Shown here one piece after another: positions 40,861 to 43,658 of a stretch of 64,000 nt of DNA. A program made the position numbers and the translations under genes. The stretch's first letter is position 1, and the number at the start of each line of letters is the position of its first letter. Below the pieces are notes generated by a model, which did no database searches, was not told the origin of the DNA, and worked only from the letters and a program-made list of their open reading frames with translations. Source of the stretch: Pseudomonadota bacterium (GTDB lineage: Bacteria > Pseudomonadota > Alphaproteobacteria > Dongiales > Dongiaceae); the NCBI GenBank assembly GCA_021792365.1, contig JAJYUT010000005.1:248001-312000 (forward strand). Reading direction: 5' to 3'.

Positions 40861-40999
40861 GTTCGTCCTCCCATGGCTGCCCTGTTCGGGCTGAACATTG
40901 ATTGAGTTCATCTGCGGCCAGCGTTGTTCCAGGGGTCGCGCAACCCCGCCCGCAAAGCAACCGGCCGCCGCGCTCATTCCAAACAATGTTCCGGTGGGA

Positions 41000-41033
41000 G
41001 TCAATAATAAATCAGGCGGATTTAATTATTGAC
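41000..41033. promoter_or_regulatory. ROK-type operator between frcB and the regulator gene
   Basis: GTCAATAATAAATC (41000-41013) and GATTTAATTATTGAC (41019-41033) are inverted repeats of each other apart from one extra base, around GGAC-free spacer AGGCG. The AT-rich dyad in a GC-rich context is the style of ROK (Mlc/NagC/FrcR) operators. It lies 140 bp before frcB and 73 bp before the regulator, so it could control both. Confidence 0.75.
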
Positions 41034-41105
41034 CAGGCCCTAGAAAAGCGCATCCTTCGAGGCATACGGCCCATTGGGGCTGAGCCGAAACAGCGCGGCG
41101 GTACC

Positions 41106-42371
41106 ATGGCAAAAGCCGATCCAGATTTGGTGCGTGACCAGGCGGCGGGGTCGGGACGGGCTTCCGGCGCCGTCCTGCACCCCGGCGATCTGGCGCGCGG
41201 CGGCAGCCAGTCGGGCGTGCGGCTCTACAACGAGCGTCTGGTGCTGTCGCTCATCCGTCGCTACGGCAGCCTGCCGAAGGCGGAAATCGCGCGCGTGACG
41301 GGCCTCTCAGCGCAGACCGCCTCCGTCATCGTGAAGCAGTTGGAGGCCGACGGGCTGCTGCTGCGGCAGCGGCCGCAGCGCGGGCGCATCGGCCAGCCGC
41401 CGGTGCCGCTCAGCCTCAATCCCGACGGCGCCTACTCCATCGGACTCAAGGTTGGCCGGCGCAGCGCGGACCTGGTGCTGATCGACTTGATGGGAAAGGT
41501 GCGCGCCGGCTTGCACCGGACCTATCGCTATCCGGAGCCCGACGCCACGCTCGCCTTCGTGCGCGCGGGCCTCGAGGACCTGCAGCGCGACCTCAATCCG
41601 GCGCAGCGCGCGCGCATCTCTGGTCTCGGCATCGCGACGCCCTTCGAGCTCTGGAACTGGGAGAAAGAGATCGGCGCGCCGCACGACGTGCTGCAGGTCT
41701 GGCGCGCCTTTGATCTGGTCGGAGAGGTCGCGAAGCTGTCGAGCTGGCCCGTCCAACTCTGCAACGACGCCACCGCCGCCTGCGCCGCGGAGCTTTCCTT
41801 CGGCATCGGCGGGCGCTATCGCGATTTTGTCTATTTCTTCGTCGGCTCGTTCATCGGCGGCGGCATCGTGCTCAACGGCATGCTTTACCAGGGCCGCACC
41901 GGAAATGCCGGCGCTCTAGGCTCGATGCCGGTGAGCGGCGACGGGCCGCTAGGCGTGGTGCAGCTCATCCGCTCCGCATCCCTCTACCATCTCGAGCAAT
42001 TGATCGGCAGGCAAGGGCGCGACCCCTCCATGCTGTGGAAAACGCCGCAGGACTGGGAGGGGATCGGCCAGCCGCTCGACGCATGGATCAAGGATTCCTC
42101 GATCCACTTGGCGCAGGCGATCGTGGCGGCGGTGTCGGTAATCGATTTCGAGGCTGCAATCATCGATGCGGCGTGTCCGCCCGAAATCCGCACCCGGCTG
42201 ATTGAGGAAACCGGGAAGCAGGTCGCGCAACTGGATCAGCAAGGTCTCTCGCCCTTCTCGATCATCGAAGGCACGATCGGCAGCGACGCCCGCGCCATCG
42301 GCGGGGCAAGCTTGCCGCTGCTCGCGAACTTCGCAGTGGATCGGGAGATATTCCTGCGCAATGCGGGTTAG
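41106..42371 (+). CDS. ROK-family transcriptional regulator of the frc operon (FrcR-like)
   Basis: A 421-residue ROK repressor. The N-terminal winged helix (about 35-95) reads NERLVLSLIRRYGSLPKAEIARVTGLSAQTASVIVKQLEADGLL; the sugar-kinase-like ROK domain follows, with LCNDATAACAAELSFG, FFVGSFIGGGIVLNG and GNAGALGSMPV. The usual zinc-binding CxCGxxGC cluster is not present, as in some repressors of this family. The ATG at 41106 is chosen; earlier in-frame starts run through the operator. Divergent from frcB, so it most likely represses frcBCA in the absence of fructose. Confidence 0.88.
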   Translation: MAKADPDLVRDQAAGSGRASGAVLHPGDLARGGSQSGVRLYNERLVLSLIRRYGSLPKAEIARVTGLSAQTASVIVKQLEADGLLLRQRPQRGRIGQPPVPLSLNPDGAYSIGLKVGRRSADLVLIDLMGKVRAGLHRTYRYPEPDATLAFVRAGLEDLQRDLNPAQRARISGLGIATPFELWNWEKEIGAPHDVLQVWRAFDLVGEVAKLSSWPVQLCNDATAACAAELSFGIGGRYRDFVYFFVGSFIGGGIVLNGMLYQGRTGNAGALGSMPVSGDGPLGVVQLIRSASLYHLEQLIGRQGRDPSMLWKTPQDWEGIGQPLDAWIKDSSIHLAQAIVAAVSVIDFEAAIIDAACPPEIRTRLIEETGKQVAQLDQQGLSPFSIIEGTIGSDARAIGGASLPLLANFAVDREIFLRNAG

Positions 42372-42372
42372 C

Positions 42373-42401
42373 GCCGTGGCCGGATCCCGACCGGCCACGG
42401 C
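42373..42401. terminator. Strong hairpin between ROK gene and small membrane protein gene
   Basis: GCCGTGGCCGG (42373-42383) and CCGGCCACGGC (42391-42401) form an 11-bp perfect stem with a 7-nt loop, 1 bp after the ROK stop and 10 bp after the convergent small gene. No T-run; probably a bidirectional terminator or RNA-stabilising stem. Confidence 0.6.
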
Positions 42402-42411
42402 GGTGAAGAGG

Positions 42412-42483
42412 TTACGCCAACCCCAGCCAGCCAAGGACGAGAGCGACGACCACCACCACGCCGATGATGTAGAAGATGTTCAT
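42412..42483 (-). CDS. 23-residue single-span membrane protein
   Basis: A very short gene reading MNIFYIIGVVVVVALVLGWL then GLA and TAA. It is one continuous hydrophobic segment and so a small transmembrane peptide; GGAGAGAGG sits 4-8 nt before the ATG. Near-identical 22-25 residue proteins (MNI-YIIGVVVVV--VLG) occur in many Rhizobiales and other alphaproteobacteria as unnamed small proteins, which supports this as a true gene. Function unknown; small single-span peptides often modulate membrane enzymes or transporters. It stands alone, convergent with the ROK gene, 89 bp before the metA-like gene's end on the same strand side. Confidence 0.7.
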   Translation of the reverse strand: MNIFYIIGVVVVVALVLGWLGLA

Positions 42484-42572
42484 TATCCTCTCTCCACAAG
42501 AGTGACCGCATGGCTGCTGAGCAGGCATGTCGTCTCCTGTAAACAACATCGGTGGGTGGAAAGGTTCCGCGC

Positions 42573-43544
42573 TCAGAACGTTCTTGGAATATCGTCGATG
42601 TTGTAGGGCGTGGCTTCGTACAGCGCCTTGGTCCAGTTGGTGTAAATGTGCGCCGTGTGCCGCCAGGTGTTGGGCGGCGTGCGGGCGGGGTCGTTGCCGG
42701 GGAAGTAGTGGAGCGGCAGCGGCCAGGCTGGATCCCGCGCCGAATCGCGCTTGTACTCCACGCCCAAGGTTTCGGTATCGTATTCCGGGTGGTTGAGGAT
42801 GTAGACGCGGCGCGGGAAGAGAAAACGTCCGCGATCGTAGGGTGCGCTCTCAACGATGATGTTCGGCCCCGACTCCTCCGAGTCCGCGACGATCTCGAGT
42901 TCCTTGTGCTCGAGGATGTCGTCGCGGCGCGGGCTTTTCCAGCGCGACACCGGGACCGGAAACACGTCGGGAAAGCCGAACAGCAGGCCGGTCTTGTCCG
43001 AGACGAGGCGATGCTCGAACAGGCCGAACAGCTTGCGCTGCGCCTTGAAGCTCTCGACATCGTGGAAATGCTTCAGCGCCGCCTTCGCCCCCCAGCACAG
43101 GAAGAGAGACGAGAGGACGTTGCTATCCGACCAGCGCAGGATCGTCTGCACCTCGGGCCAGATATCCTCGTCGCTGACGCGTTCCTTCAGCGCGTTGACG
43201 CCGGTGACGATCAGGCCGTCGAACTTCTTCTCTTTGATCTCGCTCCAGCCGGAATAGAACTTGCGGATGTGCTCGGCCGGCGTGTTCTTGGTCTCGCGCC
43301 CGGCATGCACGTCGCGCACATAGGTGTCCGTGGTCGCGAAGGTCAGCCTCACCTGCAGCATCGTGTTGCCGAGCCAGAGCGCCAATTGCCGTTCCGTCGT
43401 CTGCTTGTCCGCCATCAGGTTGATGATGGCGATCTCGAGCGGGCGGATGTCCTGGTGCTCCGCCCGCGCGCTCTCGATCGCGAGCGGCGTGCCGAGCGAC
43501 GGCAGGAAGGGGTGGATGGCTTCGCTGTTGATAATGACCGGCAT
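42573..43544 (-). CDS. metA: MetA-family homoserine O-acyltransferase homologue
   Basis: A 323-residue MetA-family protein. Start MPVIINSEAIHPFLPSLG is a less usual variant of the MPI-IP--LPA opening. The nucleophile cysteine is in LFLCWGAKAAL (C150) and the His/Glu pair in ILNHPEYD. The motif that fixes acyl-CoA choice, normally VTGAP(V/L)(E/G), reads VTGVNALKE (113-121), so whether it uses acetyl-CoA or succinyl-CoA, or acts on homoserine at all, is open. It would activate homoserine for methionine synthesis. An in-frame upstream extension to 43622 lacks homology. No SAM riboswitch is recognised in the 114-bp leader. Confidence 0.82.
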   Translation of the reverse strand: MPVIINSEAIHPFLPSLGTPLAIESARAEHQDIRPLEIAIINLMADKQTTERQLALWLGNTMLQVRLTFATTDTYVRDVHAGRETKNTPAEHIRKFYSGWSEIKEKKFDGLIVTGVNALKERVSDEDIWPEVQTILRWSDSNVLSSLFLCWGAKAALKHFHDVESFKAQRKLFGLFEHRLVSDKTGLLFGFPDVFPVPVSRWKSPRRDDILEHKELEIVADSEESGPNIIVESAPYDRGRFLFPRRVYILNHPEYDTETLGVEYKRDSARDPAWPLPLHYFPGNDPARTPPNTWRHTAHIYTNWTKALYEATPYNIDDIPRTF

Positions 43545-43658
43545 AAAGACCCTCGTCGCGGGCGGGCTATGGCCGCCTCGTTCCAACCGCGGGTAAATAG
43601 GGCAAGTCCCGTCCCATCGCAACAGCCCCCTGGGCAGAGGCTTCTGGTGCCAGCGGCC

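Follow-up and report, generated by a model that had tools for sequence, protein, structure and literature searches.

The window, by which we mean the whole 64-kb stretch of DNA that was analysed, encodes MNIFYIIGVVVVVALVLGWLGLA followed by a stop codon on its minus strand (42412-42483), with the plus-strand reading of the same bases, LRQPQPAKDESDDHHHADDVEDVH, being unrelated to this peptide. Among the 262 ATG-initiated ORFs of 18–30 codons in the window, the 23-residue peptide ORF is the only one composed to at least 85% of hydrophobic and small residues. The first-pass annotation had described an ORF with a strong ribosome binding site at this position, and both are confirmed on the minus strand, the site being the Shine-Dalgarno-like run listed in Table 1; the Shine-Dalgarno region, GTGGAGAG, is the same in two relatives of the same genus as in the window.

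The peptide gene lies downstream of metA and converges on a gene for a ROK-family regulator, with the ROK gene adjoining the peptide gene in all three members of the genus that carry a copy, and metA adjoining it in the window and in one relative (G002), not in the other (G003). The hairpin positioned directly 3' of both convergent genes has strongly folding counterparts, with z values of −6.0 and −6.4 and other stem bases, in the two same-genus relatives, and is probably a shared transcription end for the peptide and ROK genes, one without a T-run. Scans of the window locus for a consensus or T-run terminator and for a sigma-70-type promoter found neither. With metA upstream, and with the hairpin lying between the stops of the peptide and ROK genes, the window copy looks, from its arrangement, like an independent, short transcription unit that follows metA.

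Table 1. Features at the peptide locus, in coordinates of the window.
Feature	Position	Strand	Details
23-residue one-helix membrane peptide ORF	42412..42483	-	ATG 42481-42483, stop 42412-42414; translation, homologues, purifying selection
Shine-Dalgarno-like run GGAGAGAGG	42487..42495	-	ends three bases before the ATG; its GGAG lies eight bases before
Candidate sigma-EcfG-type promoter	42542..42568	-	GGAAC 42564-42568; TGTT at N15 (42545-42548) or N18 (42542-42545)
Hairpin	42372..42402	.	immediately 3' of the peptide gene and of the ROK gene that converges on it; -27.8 kcal/mol, z -3.8
metA, homoserine O-succinyltransferase, upstream neighbour	42573..43622 (longest-ORF coordinates)	-	Pfam HTS 3.6e-86
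ROK-family regulator, convergent neighbour	40902..42371 (longest-ORF coordinates)	+	Pfam ROK 1.4e-16

A family of one-helix peptides

A tblastn search of 61 genomes revealed clear copies in two of three genomes of the same genus (86% and 78% identity) and weaker matches further out, with no clear copy found by this method in the third genome of the genus, G001, which is 68% complete. The wider family was sought with a 60-base degenerate DNA pattern built from the first copies, in which the distance from Tyr6 to the stop codon was fixed and the position of the start was left free. The pattern matched at least 120 stretches in genome contigs, and 25 of the 385 genomes in an evenly drawn sample of the class contain a match, with the reversed pattern, used as a control in the same genome searches, giving none; the earlier expectation that the peptide recurs in many alphaproteobacteria is thereby borne out. 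In a sample of the phylum, matches were present in 35 of 397 genomes, 26 of them from the same class and nine from outside it, the reversed pattern again giving none; the nine belong to two other families, which named contigs suggest to be Halomonas- and Variovorax-like.

An in-frame ATG or GTG start is present in 181 of the 182 pattern matches, giving peptides of 24 (174 copies), 23 (five copies) or 25 residues (two copies), and a Shine-Dalgarno-like run, loosely defined, is found in 176 of these 181. The family consensus is M-N-x-I-I-Y-[LI]-[VI]-G-L-[VI]-V-V-[VI]-x-A-[IV]-L-S-F-[LF]-G-L-R. At positions that were free or nearly free in the pattern, Ser19 is kept in 162 of 181 copies, Arg24 in 132 of 181 and Asn2 in 107 of the 174 24-mers; Gly9 and Gly22 are invariant, both being imposed by the search pattern. 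Only six of the 181 copies are charged anywhere from residue 6 to the one before last, these two excluded, and a single transmembrane helix with little else, as judged from the sequence, fits every copy with a start (23–25 residues), in agreement with the first description of the peptide as one helix without a soluble part. A stretch reading IFYIIGVVVVV is common to the window peptide and a copy from a Geminicoccaceae MAG (L049), a hint as to the family from which the window comes.

Four family peptides compared with Pfam and NCBIfam gave no match above a curated cut-off. The hydrophobic stretch shows weak similarity to BcsF (PF11120/TIGR03493) and to the Thivi_2564 family (NF041949), the window peptide giving E-values of 0.16 and 0.14 and a Sinorhizobium/Ensifer peptide (L074) one of 0.023, with scores that lie far under the curated cut-offs (12.4 against 23, 12.2 against 56 and 14.8 against 33 bits). 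A tblastn search of plasmids and phages with the 24-residue consensus returned no matches even though plasmid copies exist, likely because of the low-complexity filter. Neither the peptide nor any small EcfG-regulon membrane protein is described in the titles and abstract openings listed, in part those of the top-ranked papers only, from a body of literature in which few subscription papers are covered. On these comparisons, the peptide belongs to an undescribed, mainly alphaproteobacterial family of one-helix peptides, usually of 24 residues.

Among the closest published descriptions is that of SEP6 (sORF6) of Sinorhizobium meliloti 2011, for which the available sections of PMC10117765 report a length of less than 30 residues with a predicted transmembrane helix, translation evident from Ribo-seq and from Western blotting of a tagged protein, recovery mainly in the membrane/ribosome pellet, and conservation in Hyphomicrobiales. 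Both SEP6 and the present peptide thus have fewer than 30 residues and one predicted transmembrane helix, with sections 23 and 24 of that text naming neither a stress promoter nor a partner for SEP6. The family copy of S. meliloti, MNQIIYLVGLVVIVIAILSFFGLS, is encoded on pSymB of strain Ak57, and SEP6, compared by description only, may be a member of the family.

Amino acid changes are strongly depleted relative to silent ones, with a pN/pS of 0.09 among the Sinorhizobium/Ensifer copies (nine loci, eight distinct ORFs; pS 0.61, near saturation) and of 0.29 among the three copies of the window's genus. The Sinorhizobium/Ensifer set consists of L074, which was found by the pattern, and eight of the 15 records matched to it by blastn, with all copies behind both ratios, except the query L074, also recovered by tblastn or DNA similarity. 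For 14 of the 15 blastn records, the alignment spans approximately the Shine-Dalgarno site and the ORF and little else; in the fifteenth, from S. meliloti, it also takes in the promoter. A median pN/pS of 0.38 over the pattern-selected copies was disregarded, since the pattern by which they were selected already constrains their amino acids. The ratios of 0.09 and 0.29 indicate that the peptide is selected as a protein, which upholds the initial view that it is a real small protein conserved at the protein level.

Promoters of the general-stress type

In Methylobacterium extorquens, sigma-EcfG reads GAAC-N16,17-C/GGTT upstream of general-stress genes (PMC4814048, in the part of the text available), and PMC3892343 (likewise in part) assigns EcfG exclusively to Alphaproteobacteria. 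The motif GGAAC was first spotted by eye upstream of the peptide and then tested in the 105 nt preceding each start (−115 to −10), where it is present in 111 of the 146 alphaproteobacterial copies, compared with 9.5% of control windows and three of 21 copies from outside the class, and is absent from the other 35 alphaproteobacterial copies. The full consensus is found in 60 of the 146 alphaproteobacterial copies against 221 of 29,016 control windows (0.76%), in none of the 21 outside-class copies and in one of eight copies of uncertain taxonomy, these statistics, like those of co-occurrence and adjacency given below, ignoring shared ancestry and genome size. With GGAAC and [CG]GTT held fixed, the two elements are separated by 16 nt in 36 copies and by 17 nt in 23, with at most two copies at any other spacing between 8 and 25 nt. 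This link to a general-stress promoter, read from upstream sequence, is the main new fact of the analysis: a large part of the family, not all copies, carries the promoter expected of the EcfG regulon.

The full consensus lies 49–51 nt before the start in eight of the nine Sinorhizobium/Ensifer loci, the exception being the Ensifer canadensis locus L188. The unannotated copy on pSymB of S. meliloti Ak57 (L187, 3052-3126) has GGAAC-N16-CGTT 50 nt before its start. The E. canadensis copy (L188, 2513-2587) is located near otsA/otsB and a gene for a sigma-70-family factor. The window copy has the −35 stretch GGAACCTTTC, of which GGAACCT is kept in both same-genus relatives; its −35 box is canonical, but its −10 candidates, TGTT at N15 or N18, have a non-canonical spacing, so that the copy departs from the EcfG consensus, and in the G003 copy the −10 element is not recognisable. 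From this candidate promoter, EcfG regulation of the window copy is likely.

Regulators of this response are encoded in the window genome, in which genes for PhyR, NepR and an ECF sigma factor stand side by side on contig C10, with GGAAC-N17-GGTT between nepR and the likely start of phyR. The EcfG-type site in this nepR-phyR gap (L185, 1361-1388) is an inverted repeat, GGAACCCC...GGGGTTCC, and is therefore readable in both directions. Of the 25 peptide genomes in the class sample, 19 have a NepR match and six have none, compared with matches in 47 of 360 other genomes; the PhyR sigma-like domain scores over the cut-off in 21 of the 25 and is without a match in two, with this model also matching the sigma factors of other genomes.

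Many target genes of the general stress response in Alphaproteobacteria lack a known function, which leaves the way in which it protects cells poorly explained; in S. meliloti, the available part of PMC3616915 gives 150 of the 202 genes raised by rpoE2 as having no predicted function. In the same source, 23 sRNAs of this species are predicted to be preceded by sigma-E2 (RpoE2) motifs, and among such sRNAs a short mRNA like that of the peptide could hide. A paper on Bradyrhizobium sORFs (PMC5082802) does not use the term EcfG in its main text.

A four-helix membrane protein as candidate partner

A profile search places a membrane protein of ~290 residues, in the same orientation as the peptide gene and within 300 nt downstream of it, in 67 of 178 peptide loci, of which 174 have at least 400 nt of downstream sequence; this count supersedes that of a first clustering of neighbours, in which the protein was directly downstream in 34 of 151 loci. 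The profile (A2) was built from 30 of the large proteins, with 37 of the 67 linked loci independent of it, and only five other matches to it occur in the same 178 loci. The gap between the peptide and the large gene, taken as its longest ORF, measures 3–40 nt in 26 of the 34 first-clustered pairs. Adjacency is seen for 65 of the 146 alphaproteobacterial copies, the other 81 not lying upstream of the large protein, and for none of 22 copies from outside the class. The EcfG consensus is no more frequent among these linked alphaproteobacterial copies (23/65) than among the unlinked ones (37/81).

The two proteins also tend to occur in the same genomes, with the large protein encoded in 21 of the 25 peptide genomes of the class sample, seven of which gave sequence to the profile, compared with 27 of the 360 genomes without the peptide; the pair is adjacent in 16 of the 25, and no large-protein match is present in four (E ≤ 1e-5). 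Outside the class, five of nine peptide genomes have a profile match and four have none (E ≤ 1e-3). Of 17 plasmids matched by one large-protein query, six carry the peptide immediately upstream, the peptide pattern not being found upstream in the other 11, and several large proteins from genomes of the window's own family were likewise checked and found to have no peptide upstream. No large protein adjoins the window copy, and a distant, unlinked homologue is encoded elsewhere in its genome (L230, G000:C17:181729-182499, E 4.5e-21), missed by the single large-protein query and found by the profile. The proposal that the peptide may bind a larger membrane protein, to be checked by comparing neighbouring genes across species, is supported indirectly, by a recurrent neighbour and by co-occurrence in the family at large, but not by the window copy, beside which there is no such gene.

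AlphaFold predicts that the large protein consists of four long helices and a small helical part (mean pLDDT 80); at E 0.001 the model matches no PDB fold, the best having E 1.0. Thirty members searched at E 1e-3 gave no match in NCBIfam and one weak, holin-type match, for a single member, in Pfam, and no PADLOC match was found for the one member searched. When the peptide and the large protein were modelled as one chain, the peptide helix came out at low confidence and the result said nothing about contacts.

Vreelandella/Halomonas loci (L031, L036, L056, L093, L095, L107) and Variovorax loci (L041, L043, L062, L069, L087), the latter with a GTG start, carry the peptide with neither a stress promoter nor an adjacent large protein. 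The presence of the peptide in these Halomonas- and Variovorax-like groups is likely the result of horizontal transfer.

Role of the peptide

CydX, KdpF, AcrZ and MgtS are single-helix accessory microproteins of membrane complexes, and the present peptide resembles them in its size class (~20–50 residues), its one hydrophobic helix and its frequent co-encoding with a larger membrane protein, as well as in being easily overlooked by gene callers. Unlike these proteins, the peptide has no Pfam or NCBIfam match over cut-off, its candidate partner belongs to no known family, and its promoter is of the general-stress type. A conserved family, a frequent stress promoter and a frequent membrane-protein neighbour together point to the peptide as a probable minor component with a function in the stress response.

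We assign a probability of roughly 0.5 to the reading that the peptide is a stress-response microprotein, predicted to pack against a larger membrane protein. Under stress, PhyR would bind NepR and EcfG would be released, switching on the peptide gene, and the peptide would insert in the membrane as one helix, whose small residues Gly9, Ala16, Ser19 and Gly22, the first three of them on the contact face, may pack against the larger protein. The partner would most likely be the four-helix protein where this is present, with the peptide as an accessory subunit that stabilises or regulates it; the window gene is probably also stress-driven, and its partner would be encoded elsewhere. More tentatively, the 24-residue helix and the four-helix protein, neither of them in Pfam or NCBIfam, might form a two-part membrane module that EcfG switches on and that, in stressed cells, seals the inner membrane or remodels it, as a hidden core component of the alphaproteobacterial general stress response. 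The peptide would in addition have been retained on its own and transferred to the Halomonas and Variovorax lineages.

The 81 alphaproteobacterial copies that stand apart from the large protein, the lack of a large-protein match in four of 25 peptide genomes of the class and four of nine outside it, and the variety of the other neighbours, often stress genes as read from sequence or annotation, would suit a stress-induced helical peptide with no fixed partner, acting by self-association or by altering local lipid packing, in which case the four-helix protein would be no more than a further stress gene of that unit. We regard such autonomy as unlikely, given that both adjacency (67/178) and co-occurrence (21/25 against 27/360) are far over background and that the invariant Gly9 and Gly22, imposed by the pattern, together with the mostly kept Ser19, suggest specific packing. 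TisB and Ibs are type I toxins, short membrane peptides induced by stress as is proposed here, and a growth inhibitor of this kind, which would depolarise the membrane and slow growth, fits the size, hydrophobicity and stress promoter of the peptide. It is a distinctly improbable role, since TisB is amphipathic whereas internal charge is nearly absent from the family, and since conservation across a class and frequent adjacency to a membrane-protein gene are both unusual in type I toxins. On the side of an inhibitor stands a survey of ORFs in coding sRNAs which, in the part of PMC5521070 available, finds predicted membrane helices to be over-represented, particularly in B. subtilis, S. aureus and S. 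meliloti, and connects many of them with type I toxin systems.

The position of 67 copies within 300 nt upstream of the large-protein gene, with the short gaps measured in most first-clustered pairs, might also be expected of a leader peptide (uORF) controlling translation of the downstream gene and not acting as a protein. After the window copy come only the hairpin and the convergent ROK gene, so that there is nothing downstream for a leader to regulate, and amino acids are conserved among Sinorhizobium/Ensifer copies, with no large-protein gene directly after L074, L187 or L188; this reading was rejected on the hairpin before the convergent gene and on conservation of the peptide as a protein, and we consider it very improbable. 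The plasmid records examined that have gene tables, which are incomplete, list no CDS at the peptide, including six records that pair the peptide with the large protein, as would be the case if there were no gene here, the ORF having arisen by chance or being an incidentally open stretch of a non-coding RNA. With pN/pS well below 1, Shine-Dalgarno-like runs before nearly every copy and a reversed-pattern control of zero, this possibility is negligible, the control and purifying selection being the grounds on which it was rejected.

As a stress-response microprotein, the peptide would be a small and directly testable target, being strongly conserved and common to Sinorhizobium, Bradyrhizobium, Mesorhizobium, Paracoccus, Devosia and others, and one that tends to be hidden by standard gene calling. 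In one genome (G005:C1:196837-197268; L006/L014), two copies of the peptide with Trp in place of Tyr at position 6 lie 369 bp apart on one strand; the pair adjoins a gene read as a trehalose-phosphatase (otsB), and the first copy has GGAAC-N17-CGTT upstream.
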